Of a stretch of DNA of 48,280 nt, positions 20,396-33,907 are shown in pieces. Each line of letters begins with the position of its first letter. Positions within the stretch are counted from its first letter, which is position 1. Source of the stretch: a virus. The notes under the pieces were generated by a model that did no database searches, had not been told where the DNA came from, and saw only the letters and a list, made by a program, of their open reading frames with translations. The translations under genes were made by a program, and so were the position numbers. The DNA lies in IMG/VR virus record IMGVR_UViG_3300025536_000019, positions 1 through 48,280 of that record; one strand, given 5' to 3'.

Positions 20396-20842
20396 TTATT
20401 TTTTAGACCACTTTTTACAGAGCTTCATGTGTCCCGCGTACGCATCAGTTGCGGTGTTGTAACCCTCCATGTCTAATTCGCCACTCGTCATTTTCCACGG
20501 ACAGCATTTGTATTTTGCGTCTGCCGTCTTTTCTTTCACCGCCCTAAACACCATCGTCTCGTAAGTGCGCGACATGCCAAGTTCAGTAAAGCCAAACTTT
20601 TTATGATATGCCGCGTCGAAATAGTCTCCCTTCAAGTGAAGGTTCGCTTGGTACCACTTCTTGTCGTGAATCTCTGCGTGAATGCGGCGCACTGCCTGAT
20701 CGGGCCAGTACTCACCAACCGTCGACACAATATATTTACCGACACGCGTGTTGAGGTGAAAACGACAGTCGTTGCCGACAATGAGATGCCCCGCATGTGG
20801 CATCCAGACCCATTTCTCCTTTGGCACCGTTTTTTTATTCAT
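20396..20842 (-). CDS. Conserved-type phage hypothetical protein (148 aa)
   Basis: The N-terminal part reads WMPHAGHLIVGNDCRFHLNTRVGKYIVSTVGEYWP, a pattern (H-A-G-H, C-R-F-H-L, V-G-x-Y-I-V-S-T-V-G-E-Y) I have seen in hypothetical proteins of unrelated phages; then FGFTELGMSRTYETMVF and a C-terminal half with CC and C pairs. Histidines and cysteines could bind metal. Function unknown. Its start overlaps the Fic gene end by 8 bases. Confidence 0.65.
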   Translation of the reverse strand: MNKKTVPKEKWVWMPHAGHLIVGNDCRFHLNTRVGKYIVSTVGEYWPDQAVRRIHAEIHDKKWYQANLHLKGDYFDAAYHKKFGFTELGMSRTYETMVFRAVKEKTADAKYKCCPWKMTSGELDMEGYNTATDAYAGHMKLCKKWSKK

Positions 20843-21356
20843 ATTTGAACCACTTGTAGTATTCCATCTGCTCGTCGCCCGCGTGAATTACGAGGAGCGG
20901 AAGGCCGTTTTTAATACGCCACCAATTCATAAAGATGCGACCTGTACGTCCGTTGCCATCTTCAAATGGATGAATTCTCTCATACTGAACGTGTAAGTTT
21001 TTCGATCGCTCTTCGAGGATTTCAGGACTCATGTTTTCGAACGTCATGTTCATTGCTTCGATCCAGTCTTCGATCGCGTATCCAACTGAAGCGGAATTCA
21101 ACGCTTTGTTTCCTCCAATATAGACATCAACATTTCGAAGCATCCCTCGACCGCCCATGCCAACAATCCTGTGATCATCCCATGCCTCCGGCGGTTCCAT
21201 CAGGAATGCGTGGGTACGAAGCACGTCGTTGAGGGAAAGTGAGGAACGGCCGTTTATATAATTCCACGCCTCGATCGAAGCGTTGAGACAAACCTCACCG
21301 AATTTTCCTTCAATCCGGTTCGACTCATCTAAGAAAATTATTTCGTCTCGTTCCAT
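20835..21356 (-). CDS. Fic-family protein with N-terminal inhibitory motif
   Basis: A 173-residue protein. HPFEDGNGRTGR at 129-140 is the complete Fic active site (H129 general base, phosphate-binding loop). SNRIEG at 12-17 matches the inhibitory helix motif (S/T)xxxE(G/N) of autoinhibited Fic enzymes. Fic proteins attach AMP, or other nucleotide parts, to hydroxyl groups of target proteins. The protein is complete, with a flap-like region (about 72-82). In a phage it may modify host proteins or act in defence or lysogeny; no antitoxin gene is needed as the inhibitory helix is built in. Confidence 0.9.
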   Translation of the reverse strand: MERDEIIFLDESNRIEGKFGEVCLNASIEAWNYINGRSSLSLNDVLRTHAFLMEPPEAWDDHRIVGMGGRGMLRNVDVYIGGNKALNSASVGYAIEDWIEAMNMTFENMSPEILEERSKNLHVQYERIHPFEDGNGRTGRIFMNWWRIKNGLPLLVIHAGDEQMEYYKWFKYE

Positions 21357-28113: not shown

Positions 28114-28142
28114 TTGACAGGGTTCACTACATCGTATATTAT
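28114..28142 (+). promoter_or_regulatory. Consensus promoter of the integrase, predicted leaderless
   Basis: TTGACA (28114-28119), 17-base spacer, TATTAT (28137-28142). The ATG follows 7 bases after the -10, just where transcription should begin, so the mRNA is expected to start at or next to the AUG. No ribosome-binding site could fit. Confidence 0.8.
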
Positions 28143-28149
28143 ACGAAGT
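28122..28149 (+). other. dif-like site overlapping the integrase promoter, candidate attP
   Basis: The right 11 bases TTATACGAAGT (28139-28149) fit the XerD-arm pattern TTATNNNAANT. The central six CGTATA (28133-28138) differ at one base from the E. coli dif centre. The left 11 bases (28122-28132) match the XerC arm only weakly (5 of 11 with B. subtilis). CGTATA-T-TATACG (28133-28145) is also a 13-base inverted repeat. It lies directly before a XerC/D-like recombinase gene. Inference; the site is short. Confidence 0.4.
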
Positions 28150-28965
28150 ATGGATACAGAACGAACGGTGAGCGACTTTTTGTCGCAACTTCAAAAGGAG
28201 GGGTACTCTCCACACACGATTAAAAATTATCAGCGCGGCCTCGATACCTTCCTGAAAAAATTTAAGGGAGACGTCACACTAAAAAATATCGAAGCGGCCC
28301 TCCTCCCCACTCGCTCAAACGGCAGTCTCTCCCACAAGTCCAAGAACATCGTCATCATCCCCGTGCGTCGATGGGTCGCGTTTCTCAATGAGAAGCACGG
28401 CACGGCCATTCCCGTCGAGCAGATCAAGACCGAGCGCAATCGAAATGGTCGCAAGAAACTCGACCTCCCCGAAAAGGAAGAGGTGCGCGCCTACTTAAGT
28501 TTCAGAGACACTCCACTGTCTGACGTTGTGGTAAATCTCCTCTTCGATACCGGGCTTCGACTGTCTGAATTGATGGCACTCAAAGTTGGAGATGTGCGCG
28601 AGCGATTCTCTATGGTCGGGAAAGGAAATAAGCAGCGCCCGGTCTACTGCACCGCGAAAGTTGTTGCTCTGGTCAACGTGTATGTGAAGACTAATAAGCT
28701 CGAACAGGGACAGCCGTTATTCCCGTACTCAAATCGGTGGATACAGCAGTTGCTCGAAGAGCGACAGGTACGGTCTGGGGTTCGCAAAAATATCACCGCA
28801 CACACCCTGCGCCACCTCTATGCCGTGAACATGTTGCAGAATGGTGCCTCACTGCGCGCCATCCAAGAACTCCTTGGCCATTCGTCGATATTGACCACGC
28901 AGATTTATACGACCGTGACCGATCAGCACCTTGACCAAACATATAAACAGTTCCACAAAAGGTAG
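28150..28965 (+). CDS. Tyrosine recombinase (XerC/XerD-like integrase)
   Basis: 271 residues from ATG 28150. N-terminal SAM-like domain (FLSQLQKEGYSPHTIKNYQRGL), then the catalytic domain with R137 (TGLRLSEL), K158 (GKGNKQR), H218 and R221 (HTLRHLYA), H244 (LLGHSS) and nucleophile Y253 (TTQIYT). All six catalytic residues are present and the C-terminus resembles XerD closely, including T-T-Q-I-Y-T. Length is typical for Xer proteins rather than lambda-type integrases. I start it at 28150 because of the promoter position. It would integrate the phage, possibly at the host dif, or resolve dimers. Confidence 0.9.
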   Translation: MDTERTVSDFLSQLQKEGYSPHTIKNYQRGLDTFLKKFKGDVTLKNIEAALLPTRSNGSLSHKSKNIVIIPVRRWVAFLNEKHGTAIPVEQIKTERNRNGRKKLDLPEKEEVRAYLSFRDTPLSDVVVNLLFDTGLRLSELMALKVGDVRERFSMVGKGNKQRPVYCTAKVVALVNVYVKTNKLEQGQPLFPYSNRWIQQLLEERQVRSGVRKNITAHTLRHLYAVNMLQNGASLRAIQELLGHSSILTTQIYTTVTDQHLDQTYKQFHKR

Positions 28966-29853: not shown

Positions 29854-31410
29854 ATGCAAAACGAAACGGAAGTAAAAAAAGTTGAGGAAGTGGCGGCCGC
29901 AGAGGATTTCAATGTCACACCTGAAGAGTTTCGGGAAAAATTGCGCGACCGAAAGTGGCGGTTAAACAATTTATATTTCATTAAGGATGAGAAGGGAAAT
30001 AAGATTCTTTTCCAAATGAATCCTGTGCAGGAATATCTGCACGACAACCTTTGGTTTTTTAATATCATCCCGAAAGCACGTCAGTTGGGTATTACCACGT
30101 TCTTTGCGATCCTCTATCTCGATCAGGTTCTCTGGTCGGACAACAAAACGGCCGGTATCATTGCCCACCGCCTTGAGGACATGAAAAAAATCTTCAAGCA
30201 TAAGATTAAGTACGCGTGGGACAACCTACATCCATGGCTTCGTGCGAAAATCGGCGAGCCTAATACTGACTCCGCGTACGAAATGTCATTTCCGAACGGA
30301 TCCAACATCTTCGTGTCGATGTCGACACGTTCCGGCACTGTGCAGTTTTTGCACATTTCAGAGTTTGGCCCTATCTGTCAGAAATTTCCCGATAAGGCGG
30401 AGGAAATTGTGACTGGTGCCATCAACTCCGTTCACGCGGGTCAGATGGTCTCGATTGAATCAACCGCGGCGGGACGCGACGGATATTTCTATGATTTTTG
30501 TATGGACGCAGAGAAGGCACGCAAGGAGGGGCGTGAATTGACGCCGCTCGACTTCAAGATTTTCTTTTTTCCATGGTGGATCGACAAACGTTATTCACTC
30601 GACAATTTTGACTTCGCTCTCACGGCGGAGGAACAGCAGTATTTTGAGACACTAAAGACGCGTTACAACATTGAACTCACCGACGGACAGAAGCGTTGGT
30701 ACGCAAAGAAGAAAAAATACAATCAGGCAAAAATTTTCGAAGAGTATCCCTCAACCCTCGATGAGGCGTTCCTTGCGAATGTCGAGGGCGCGTACTACAC
30801 GCGCGAGATGAACAAGGTGTATCTGTCGCGACGCATCAGGCTAGTCCCGATTGATACGTTGGTGCCGGTCGATACATGGTGGGACTTGGGTATGAATGAC
30901 GACAACGTAATTCTCTTCACGCAGACGATTGGTGGTGCAATTCACTTCGTCGATCTGTATGTGAATTCTGGAGAGAATCTCGCCCACTACGTTAAAGTAT
31001 TGCAGGACAAAGGGTATCGATACGGCCACCACATTCTGCCGCATGACGTTGAGGTGCGTGATATAACCATCGGGAAGACGCGAAAGACCGTCCTCTACGA
31101 ACTTGGACTCACCAGTGTGCGTGTCGCGCCGAAGATGAATTTGCAGGATGGTATCGAGCGTGTGCGCAACCTCTTCCCACGATTTTATTTTGATGAAGAA
31201 CATTGTCAGCCGCTCACTGACTCTCTTTCGGCGTATCGGAAGGAATGGGACGCAAAACTCGGTGTCTTTAAAGATAAACCCAAGCACGATAAAAATTCGC
31301 ACATCGCAGATGCCGTGCGAACAGGTTGTTTGCTCTGGCATGAGGAAATGAAAACGACAGATGATGATGGTTATCCCCTGAAGGAGATGGAGCAGTCGTT
31401 TTTCAGTTGA
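29854..31410 (+). CDS. Terminase large subunit
   Basis: 518 residues. ATPase part: Walker A variant KARQLGITTF (74-83) and FLHISEFG with Walker B, then ESTAAG coupling motif. Nuclease part (RNase H fold): WWDLGMND with D344, and C-terminal KNSHIADAVR with a metal-binding aspartate. The protein packages DNA into the prohead using ATP and cuts the concatemer. The variant lacking GK in Walker A is normal for this terminase type. No sequence mark tells whether packaging is headful or cos. Confidence 0.92.
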   Translation: MQNETEVKKVEEVAAAEDFNVTPEEFREKLRDRKWRLNNLYFIKDEKGNKILFQMNPVQEYLHDNLWFFNIIPKARQLGITTFFAILYLDQVLWSDNKTAGIIAHRLEDMKKIFKHKIKYAWDNLHPWLRAKIGEPNTDSAYEMSFPNGSNIFVSMSTRSGTVQFLHISEFGPICQKFPDKAEEIVTGAINSVHAGQMVSIESTAAGRDGYFYDFCMDAEKARKEGRELTPLDFKIFFFPWWIDKRYSLDNFDFALTAEEQQYFETLKTRYNIELTDGQKRWYAKKKKYNQAKIFEEYPSTLDEAFLANVEGAYYTREMNKVYLSRRIRLVPIDTLVPVDTWWDLGMNDDNVILFTQTIGGAIHFVDLYVNSGENLAHYVKVLQDKGYRYGHHILPHDVEVRDITIGKTRKTVLYELGLTSVRVAPKMNLQDGIERVRNLFPRFYFDEEHCQPLTDSLSAYRKEWDAKLGVFKDKPKHDKNSHIADAVRTGCLLWHEEMKTTDDDGYPLKEMEQSFFS

Positions 31411-31411
31411 T

Positions 31412-31552
31412 ATGGGAGAGGGACTCCAATCGGCGACGGTGGAGCATGAACATCAGTTCGGAGAACGGAGGATGTGCTACGTCTGCTTTGGTCGGTTCCG
31501 TCGGGTTTGCGACTGTGGACAATCGTATTGTGAAAATTGTAATAACGGGTAG
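31412..31552 (+). CDS. Six-cysteine zinc micro-protein (46 aa)
   Basis: MCYVCFGRFRRVCDCGQSYC then ENC: C22, C25, C33, C35, C40 and C43, a compact two-knuckle or RING-like layout. It starts one base after the large-terminase stop (TGA-T-ATG) and ends 9 bases before the tRNA. The position between terminase and portal is consistent with a packaging or head helper. Not recognised. Confidence 0.6.
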   Translation: MGEGLQSATVEHEHQFGERRMCYVCFGRFRRVCDCGQSYCENCNNG

Positions 31553-31561
31553 GCTCTCAGG

Positions 31562-31632
31562 AGCGGTTTAGAGGAACGGCACCTCGCCTCGCTCATAACG
31601 AGGAGCATCCGGTTCGACTCCGGAAACCGCAA
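31562..31632 (+). tRNA. tRNA-Met (anticodon CAT) with initiator-type features
   Basis: All arms are present: acceptor 31563-31568 with 31625-31630; D-stem GAGG/CCTC with A14, G18G19 and A21; anticodon stem CCTCG/CGAGG with loop CTCATAA; T-stem TCCGG/CCGGA with loop TTCGACT; U8 at 31569. The 1:72 position is A-A, unpaired, and A72-A73 and the A11-U24 pair match bacterial initiator tRNA; the three G-C pairs of the initiator anticodon stem are missing. CCA is not encoded. The alternative fold without the mismatch loses U8 and a T-stem pair. It lies between terminase and portal genes. Confidence 0.85.
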
Positions 31633-31636
31633 CACG

Positions 31637-31762
31637 TTAACCTTGTCCATTCGGACAGCCCGGATGGTGGCCCTTGCCACTTCCGCAGATGCCACAGCCA
31701 CCAGATCCGCGTGTTTCAACGGTTTCGCGAGTGTCGGGAATTTTTGGTTCTCCCTCGTGCAT
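31637..31762 (-). CDS. Possible zinc-knuckle micro-protein on the opposite strand (41 aa)
   Basis: MHEGEPKIPDTRETVETRGS at the start, then GGCGICGSGKGHHPGCPN, a compact C-x2-C-x(5)-H-H-x2-C site. It is the only minus-strand frame of note in the late block and ends 5 bases from the tRNA. The zinc pattern is specific enough to report, but there is no promoter or neighbour support. Confidence 0.4.
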   Translation of the reverse strand: MHEGEPKIPDTRETVETRGSGGCGICGSGKGHHPGCPNGQG

Positions 31763-31834: not shown

Positions 31835-33907
31835 ATGGCGGTAATGGATCCCTTAAACAGCGGAGCTTCGAACCCCTTGGACGAGAAGAAGAAGTACGAG
31901 GGAGCGGCAACACCGGAGAATGAGAAAAAGCCGGGGGATGTCGAGCAAATTTATACCGAGGACGATCGGAAATATATTTCGTTTCTTCAGAGGCGTTTGG
32001 AGGATGCGAAGACTGTTCGTAATAATCCGTTGGAAGACCTTGGTGGTAAGACGTATATTCAAATCTACGAGGAGAACGAAAAAATTGCGAACACAAATCT
32101 CCCCGCAAAGAAAAATGAGGATGATGTAATTGTCTCCGCCGGTACGATCGAGGCAAAGCTCGATGCTCTACTTTCACACATTTCCAATCTCGACCTGTCA
32201 CCCGAAGTCCATGCGTTCGATCGTGAGAATAATAAATTGCAGGAGATCGGTGTTGCTCTGCAGGATGTGATTTACATGACAGAGGAAAAAGACGGCGCCG
32301 ATGAGGGAGGGGATGAAGAGAAAAAACTATTACGGCAGCGTGAGCTTTTGAAACAGGGAACCGTGTTCGTACAAGAGGAGTGGTTACGACTCTGGGAGAC
32401 GAAGAAAAAATTGAAAAAAGATTTCGACGGCAAGTTTAAACAGGACGCTGAATTTTATAGTGAAGCACTCGAACTTGTTTTTGATGGGCCGTCACGCACG
32501 GTGCTACACGGGCCGAATGTGTATCTTGGAAACATTACCGAGTTTTATATGGAGAAGCAGCCGTACGTCTTTGCGGTGATCCACATGTCTCACGATGTGG
32601 CGAAAGCTAAGTACGGACGTTTTGAAAATTTCGATAAATATGTGAAGGCGGGTAATTACGTCGACAAAACCGAAGGCACCTCAACCGTCGCAGGAAAAAC
32701 TATCTTCGACAATAAGTGGCGCCTCACCGAAGTGAAGAAAGATAACGTAGAGGTCATCATCTATCAAGACAAGCCTCGCGACGAATTCCAAATTCTCATC
32801 AATGGAGTCCTCATGCTTCCTATTGGCTTTCCCCTTTCGGCGGTCACTCCGGGCGGCAACTATAATATCGCGAAGCAGGTGTTCCGAGTTATTAACTCAC
32901 ACTTTGCCTACGGTAAATCATTCGTGTCATCGGGTGCGGTGAAGGAGGTTTCAGCACTCATCGATGAAATGCTCAAACTATTTGTACTGAAGACACGGAA
33001 GAGTTATGCTCCACCGTATATCAATACGTCCGGTAAGGTTATTTCGAAACGCGTTCTTTCCGCAGGTCGTATCTCCATGGGTATTCCACCCGATGCGTTG
33101 GTACCAATCGGCCAAGAAGGTCAGGGAGTTACCGCAAACGAGTACTCTATCTTGAAAGAGCTTTCCGATCGTGTCGACAAGTCGACTATTTCTGCACAGT
33201 TCCAAGGGCAGTCAGGAAAGTCAGGTCAGACCGCGACCGAAACGGTTGAACTGCAGCGTCAAGCAAAACTGACGCTCGGTCTAGCGATCGCTGCGTGTTC
33301 ATTCTTGGAGAAAAAACTCGGTTATCTTCGCTTGTGGAATATCCTTGAAAATTGGTTTGAACCTATTGATACGAAACTTGTTCTCATCGACAACGAGCGT
33401 CGTGAAATGAATCGTTACAGGAACTCATTCCGTGAGACAAATATCGAAGGTGAGGGATTTGGCGCGCGACAGGTTATCACGGTCGACGGTATGGTTCCTG
33501 CTCCTGAAACGATTCGAGAACTTGAACGACGTGAGAGTGAAAAATATGGCTTCCCGATCCGCAAGGTATATCTTTCTTATAATGGTCTTAAAAGCGCCCG
33601 GCTGAAATGGTACATCACGGTGACGCCACGCGAGAAAGAAACGTCAGCATTGAATAAACTCACATTCCGTGAAGACTTGAATGATGTGCTTGCGTTGATG
33701 CAGATGGGTTCTATACCGAACGTCGGAGGATTGGAGGAAGAGTTCGCGACTTCACGCGGCAAGAAACGTCAAAAGTATTTTGCGACAGCAACAGCTATGG
33801 GGCCATCCAATCTTGCGGGTGTTTCACCATCTTCAATTAGAGGGCAACTCAACGGCTCCGGAGGCGGTTCGAGTTTATCAGTAAACACGACGGTACCCTC
33901 GTCGTAA
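31835..33907 (+). CDS. Portal protein
   Basis: 690 residues from ATG 31835 (context ACAATGG). Coiled N-terminal region with an acidic insertion, central KAKYGRF, and a C-terminal half with QFQGQSGKSGQTATETVELQRQAKLTLGLAIAACSFLEKKLGYLRLWNIL, the long tunnel/stem helices typical of podovirus-type portals; Ser/Gly-rich end. The portal is the dodecameric DNA gate. Long form (about 700 residues) agrees with P22-like or N4-like tails rather than siphoviruses. Identity supported by its position after the terminase. Confidence 0.85.
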   Translation: MAVMDPLNSGASNPLDEKKKYEGAATPENEKKPGDVEQIYTEDDRKYISFLQRRLEDAKTVRNNPLEDLGGKTYIQIYEENEKIANTNLPAKKNEDDVIVSAGTIEAKLDALLSHISNLDLSPEVHAFDRENNKLQEIGVALQDVIYMTEEKDGADEGGDEEKKLLRQRELLKQGTVFVQEEWLRLWETKKKLKKDFDGKFKQDAEFYSEALELVFDGPSRTVLHGPNVYLGNITEFYMEKQPYVFAVIHMSHDVAKAKYGRFENFDKYVKAGNYVDKTEGTSTVAGKTIFDNKWRLTEVKKDNVEVIIYQDKPRDEFQILINGVLMLPIGFPLSAVTPGGNYNIAKQVFRVINSHFAYGKSFVSSGAVKEVSALIDEMLKLFVLKTRKSYAPPYINTSGKVISKRVLSAGRISMGIPPDALVPIGQEGQGVTANEYSILKELSDRVDKSTISAQFQGQSGKSGQTATETVELQRQAKLTLGLAIAACSFLEKKLGYLRLWNILENWFEPIDTKLVLIDNERREMNRYRNSFRETNIEGEGFGARQVITVDGMVPAPETIRELERRESEKYGFPIRKVYLSYNGLKSARLKWYITVTPREKETSALNKLTFREDLNDVLALMQMGSIPNVGGLEEEFATSRGKKRQKYFATATAMGPSNLAGVSPSSIRGQLNGSGGGSSLSVNTTVPSS

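Follow-up and report, generated by a model that had tools for sequence, protein, structure and literature searches.

An initiator-type tRNA with an altered inner anticodon stem in a virus record, and related tRNAs across phages

Introduction

Every protein made in a bacterium begins with the initiator tRNA, and the inner part of its anticodon stem is a region that cells almost never alter. Why, then, would a phage carry a tRNA of this type with a different stem? In bacterial initiators the 1:72 mismatch, G2:C71, C3:G70 and A11:U24 favour formylation and three G-C pairs of the anticodon stem serve P-site selection; the latter are described as conserved across all domains of life (PMC7949028). 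These G-C pairs are used to explain how the ribosome chooses its first tRNA, and natural phage initiators that break the rule would be ready test molecules.

The tRNA examined here lies in a 48,280-base virus record, IMG/VR IMGVR_UViG_3300025536_000019, the whole of which is called the window below. A first-pass annotation had described a tRNA-CAU with initiator marks between the terminase and portal genes.

The tRNA gene and its fold

ARAGORN called a single tRNA in the whole window, tRNA-Met(cat) at 31563-31631. The gene, its parts and its neighbours are as follows.

28114-28965: tyrosine integrase, about 2.6 kb from the tRNA
29854..31410 (+): large terminase subunit, the upstream neighbour (PHROG 2 and 5989, terminase large subunit)
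31412..31552 (+): small cysteine-rich ORF whose 46-aa product, MGEGLQSATVEHEHQFGERRMCYVCFGRFRRVCDCGQSYCENCNNG, was read by eye; it stops 10 nt before the tRNA
31562..31632 (+): initiator-type tRNA, anticodon CAU, A1 to A73, 71 nt (ARAGORN, gap-free L146 alignment, profile classification, structural parse)
31562..31568 (+): 5' acceptor strand AGCGGUU, pairing with AACCGCA at 31625-31631 (structural parse)
31571..31585 (+): D arm GAGG-AACGGCA-CCUC with A11:U24, the same sequence as in Patescibacteria initiators L146 and L147
31587..31603 (+): anticodon arm CCUCG-CUCAUAA-CGAGG, with U29:A41, C30:G40, G31:C39 in place of G30:C40, G31:C39
31608..31624 (+): T arm UCCGG-UUCGACU-CCGGA, 5 bp (structural parse)
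31835..33907 (+): portal-position protein, the downstream neighbour, named by position and without a family match

Two registers were considered. That of ARAGORN is non-standard: it pairs G1 with C72, separates the acceptor and D stems by a single base and has a T stem of 4 bp. The register of the first-pass annotation (A1 = 31562, A73 = 31632) leaves A1•A72 unpaired and gives U8-A9 together with D and T stems of 4 and 5 bp, the D stem containing A11:U24. We adopted the second and rejected the first because the closest cellular tRNA, L146, aligns with it gap-free over 70 nt; the unpaired A1-A72, A73 and A11-U24 reported earlier are thus present. The full parse is AGCGGUU UA GAGG AACGGCA CCUC G CCUCG CUCAUAA CGAGG AGCA UCCGG UUCGACU CCGGA AACCGCA A. 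The gene lacks CCA, which is encoded in both L146 and L147, and CAC directly follows A73.

All stem pairs are Watson-Crick except 1:72, and G2:C71, C3:G70 and G4:C69 of the acceptor are initiator-like. The fold was better than that of dinucleotide shuffles (z = -2.97; 1 of 200 shuffles as good), which together with the ARAGORN call bears out the reported gene as real, and the tRNA scored below the cut-off of the Rfam tRNA model. Relative to L146, both bases have changed in six stem pairs (6:67, 7:66, 27:43, 29:41, 30:40 and 49:65) without loss of pairing, which argues that the fold has been maintained. C46 and A48, in place of G46 and U48 in L146, are off the host pattern and may weaken the tertiary fold.

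Assignment to the initiator class

For comparison we collected 155 distinct CAU tRNAs, almost all of them from genomes of Patescibacteria, with a search pattern that puts no constraint on the stems. Rules of our own divided them into 70 initiators, 63 elongator Met and 22 Ile2-like tRNAs. Position profiles built from this set reclassified 151 of the 155 correctly when each was left out in turn. The window tRNA scored +35.0 bits as an initiator, -23.6 as an elongator Met and -38.7 as an Ile2, and the initiator lead was kept (31.3, 7.7 and -24.3) when positions 1, 72, 11, 24 and 73 and the anticodon stem were masked. A tree placed it inside the initiator clade, with support of 0.994 for the group that holds L146 and L147.

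BLAST against 380 genomes from a single Patescibacteria phylum returned two full-length matches, of 76% (E 3e-8) and 73% (E 1e-5) identity, each aligned over positions 2 to 71 with no gap. Both of these nearest cellular sequences (L146 in genome G278 and L147 in genome G358) are initiator tRNAs with C1•A72, and both share with the window tRNA an identical D arm and a 4-nt variable loop. These two and the A1•A72 Patescibacteria initiators named below also have in common with it G2:C71, C3:G70, G4:C69, A11:U24, A73 and the CUCAUAA loop; they differ in having G30:C40 where it has C30:G40, and in lacking its acceptor pairs U6:A67 and U7:A66 and its C46 and A48. The A1•A72 combination is not odd in this company, since 6 of the 70 Patescibacteria initiators have it (L120, L123, L235, L274, L278 and L279). 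Two further initiator-type tRNAs of Patescibacteria, L129 (G013) and L130 (G026), form a complete A1:U72 pair and carry G11:C24, against the bacterial 1:72 mismatch rule.

The window tRNA therefore resembles bacterial initiators in its unpaired 1:72, in G2:C71, C3:G70 and A11:U24 and in overall sequence closeness, and departs from them at the three G-C pairs 29:41, 30:40 and 31:39, where it has U29:A41, C30:G40 and G31:C39. It has neither the paired 1:72 and Y11:R24 of elongator tRNA-Met nor the GGGCCC-type acceptor and Y11:R24 of tRNA-Ile2. The CUCAUAA loop, cited earlier as an initiator mark, is indeed present but is not specific to initiators, being common to the Met and Ile2 elongators of Patescibacteria. 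Elongator Met and Ile2 identities were both rejected on the profile scores, and with them the Ile2 (lysidine) reading that the annotation had kept as an alternative; among Patescibacteria CAU tRNAs the classifier placed the gene with the initiators. At the level of sequence, these comparisons demonstrate that the window tRNA belongs to the bacterial initiator (fMet) lineage.

Genomic context and probable host

Relatives of the virus are about 60-70% identical to it in the terminase and portal-position proteins (about 60-68% in the latter for relatives that lack the tRNA). ARAGORN found no tRNA between the terminase and portal genes in any relative fetched, and tRNAs located elsewhere in two of them (Arg in G006, Ser-like in G011). 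In the six relatives measured the terminase-portal gap spans about 80-130 nt, except that it reaches about 570 nt in L005, being filled there by an HNH endonuclease-like ORF (2390-2840). This gap is thus an insertion-prone slot in the family, and the window tRNA a private gain at it. The ORF at 31412-31552 (+) is likewise an insertion compared with most relatives; together with a Cys/Gly-rich ORF of 41 aa (read by eye) at 31637-31762 (-), convergent to the tRNA, it accounts for the greater part of the inserted DNA at this position.

Such a private gain could be a captured initiator gene in functionless decay, a reading to which the odd C46 and A48 and the failure of the Rfam model also lend themselves. 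Against it stand the six compensated two-sided changes, the fully paired stems and the folding score, and we regard decay as very unlikely. From the sequence we take it for a fast-evolving, probably functional RNA rather than a relic.

The CAU anticodon and the nearby tyrosine integrase might instead suggest an elongator Met, a lysidine tRNA-Ile2 or the remnant of an integrase attachment site. We give next to no credence to these readings: the profile scores exclude both elongator classes, and the attachment-site remnant was rejected because the gene is full length, lies at the wrong distance from the integrase and has its greatest similarity to host sequence in the D arm, whereas attP would be expected to show it at the 3' end.

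The best-scoring integrase relatives among cellular genome contigs were mostly from Patescibacteria, and a terminase search of the same contigs returned no prophage. Drawn from the integrase relatives and the nearest cellular tRNAs, the host is probably a member of the Patescibacteria. A Fic/DOC family protein is encoded at 20835-21356 (-) and is present in relative G010 too. That relative also holds a 105-nt tRNA-like match (L038 1500-1605, G010:C1:14306-14410; RF00005, 34 bits) that seems to contain an insertion close to the anticodon and has no ARAGORN call.

The anticodon stem in cells and in viruses

The annotation held that the three G-C pairs of the initiator stem are absent. This was nearly right: 29:41 is U:A and 30:40 is flipped to C:G, but G31:C39 is kept. 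Among the 70 Patescibacteria initiators G30 and G31 are without exception, position 39 is C (62) or U (8), and the 29:41 pair varies (A:U 35, G:C 18, U:A 17). That variation suggests a looser initiator-stem rule in Patescibacteria and speaks for one explanation of the window tRNA, namely an extra initiator copy without any link to nucleases, which would raise the initiator dose or fit host ribosomes, its stem having drifted under looser P-site selection. The invariance of G30:C40 and G31:C39/U39 in the same 70 tRNAs speaks against it.

We therefore looked at the stem in viruses. A scan with the anticodon stem left free and an initiator-type D arm and the CUCAUAA loop fixed matched at least 120 viral contigs. 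Among the 80 matches listed, 72 distinct tRNAs, not selected for their stem, were parsed: 54 had GG/CC, one had G31:U39 and 17 were without G30 or G31, the last including seven with G30:C40 and C31:G39 and two with C30:G40 and G31:C39. Among the matches listed, 18 of 72 viral tRNAs thus departed from the form against 0 of 70 in Patescibacteria (Fisher test, 2.3e-6), a value to be taken as a guide only because the two samples differ in hosts and the sequences within each are related. That most viral initiator-type tRNAs hold G30/G31 counts for the extra-copy explanation; the recurrence of the inner-stem change in phages of many unrelated hosts counts against it, and we consider that explanation unlikely, if still a serious contender.

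The C30:G40/G31:C39 form was found in 101 viral contigs (IMG/VR, L409-L509). Ninety-six parse as full tRNAs, all with a purine at 11 and U24 and 90 with A73, and five of nine contigs sampled bear terminase, portal or other virion genes. These tRNAs share with the window tRNA the two inner pairs and the initiator D arm, but their 29:41 is A:U, G:C or once C:G, never U:A, and their D stem is mostly GAGC. The exact anticodon arm of the window tRNA had no match in viral contigs. The C30:G40/G31:C39 pattern was found in 0 of 1324 bacterial genomes from four phyla other than Actinomycetota and Cyanobacteria, a count that is informative, not exhaustive, as about 44 of the 70 Patescibacteria initiators fit its D-arm part.

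A bacterial initiator query matched 487 GenBank phage records, some of which are short contigs or bacterial sequence. With the contigs above, these matches leave the view that an initiator-like tRNA is unusual in a phage without support. Among 17 isolated phages examined, the inner stem and loop are unchanged in nine and altered in eight, a proportion biased upward as part of the set was found through a C30:G40 query. C31:G39 occurs in Wakanda, Atu_ph07 and Milchi, and Cp1R7A-A1 combines C30:G40 with the loop UUCAUAC. The loop is UUCAUAC in PaMx74, CUCAUAU in CN1A, CCCAUAA in Donnerlittchen and UUCAUAA in phi-Grn1, where the stem is altered too. The tRNA sits close behind terL in PaMx74 and Donnerlittchen, as in the window.

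Phage initiator-type tRNAs are already present in databases, mostly as tRNA-Met: those of CcrColossus, Myrna, phiLM21, Wakanda, Atu_ph07 and Milchi are so annotated, that of CcrBL9 is called 'tRNA-fMet', and those of PaMx74 and CN1A carry no annotation. In most of these A11:U24 goes together with a 1:72 that is unpaired or weak, as in the window tRNA; unlike it, several keep G30/G31 and others alter 31:39 or the loop, not 30:40. Initiator-type tRNAs are not rare in phages, but labelled tRNA-Met, and the many phages that encode them contrast with the general avoidance of tRNA-fMet by phages reported in PMC10264068. The G30/G31 rule is relaxed in these predicted viral initiators. We found no paper describing such a relaxed inner stem in a literature that included few subscription papers.

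Possible roles of the altered stem

Enteric VapC toxins cleave tRNAfMet between A38 and C39 (PMC4105405), and a proposal exists that changes in the anticodon loop let phage tRNAs escape nucleases of this sort (PMC10264068). The stem changes of the window tRNA sit at the base pairs next to this bond, and the altered pairs and loop bases of the candidate viral initiators cluster at it. We favour a nuclease-surviving replacement initiator because of this clustering. In the explanation to which we give about even weight, the tRNA is a phage-borne, Patescibacteria-derived member of the fMet lineage, its fold kept by compensation, that serves as a replacement initiator with a nuclease-escaping anticodon arm. 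The gene would have been acquired from a Patescibacteria host, its fold being kept through compensatory change. The host would add CCA, charge the tRNA with Met and formylate it, and IF2 would bring it to the P site to start phage proteins. The remodelled stem would, less surely, shield it from VapC-type nucleases cutting A38|C39. With the host initiator depleted, the phage copy could work free of competition despite the missing G30:C40.

Several observations bear on this explanation. When the window tRNA is set beside the nuclease-evading phage tRNAs of PMC10264068, its changed 30:40 pair flanks A38|C39, but C39 and the loop are unaltered; that C39, the base 3' of the VapC cut, is unchanged counts against nuclease escape. 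PIN-domain genes turned up in only 2 of the 12 Patescibacteria genomes tested, which counts against the explanation as well. C46 and A48, and the absence of the tRNA at this site from every relative fetched, weigh on the same side. In E. coli the laboratory 3GC mutant (U29:A41/C30:G40/A31:U39) is efficiently charged and formylated and binds IF2, yet does not initiate and impairs ribosome maturation (PMC10486304); its match to the window tRNA in two of the three pairs counts against a working initiator, although the mutant does initiate in certain folD or rRNA methyltransferase mutant strains.

The same mutant raises the alternative of a dominant-negative initiator or decoy. Such a tRNA would accept Met and the formyl group and bind IF2 but perform badly in the P site, and would so titrate host factors, nucleases or ribosome maturation. 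This would match the behaviour of the mutant, whose U29:A41 and C30:G40 the window tRNA has, along with the marks for formylation. The mutant is laboratory-made and has A31:U39. Against a decoy, the window tRNA, which is natural, retains G31:C39, and the phage itself requires initiation; we judge a decoy quite unlikely.

Returning to replacement, the stem changes of phage initiators would perhaps keep up protein starts when the host initiator is attacked. Tentatively, and with more doubt than confidence, we extend this to phages of many hosts, which may carry a distinct kind of initiator that keeps the charging and formylation marks but has G30:C40/G31:C39 rewritten, so that initiation survives, or competes with, host attack or control. 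Natural phage initiators that break the stem rule would suggest that phages and anticodon nucleases contend over the initiator tRNA.

Translation starts

The first-pass annotation had linked the tRNA to the odd starts of this genome. In the window, 36 of 48 ATG starts have T at -1 (UAUG) and two have an SD-like 4-mer. The T at -1 is enriched over the base preceding other ATGs (p 4e-16, with some added bias as the 48 starts were chosen by us). Most relatives without the window tRNA also show UAUG starts lacking SD motifs, so the tRNA is not needed for them and the proposed link was rejected. A base pair between U-1 and A37 in the anticodon loop of the initiator could take the place of SD pairing. 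At Patescibacteria loci T at -1 was weaker (54 of 127).
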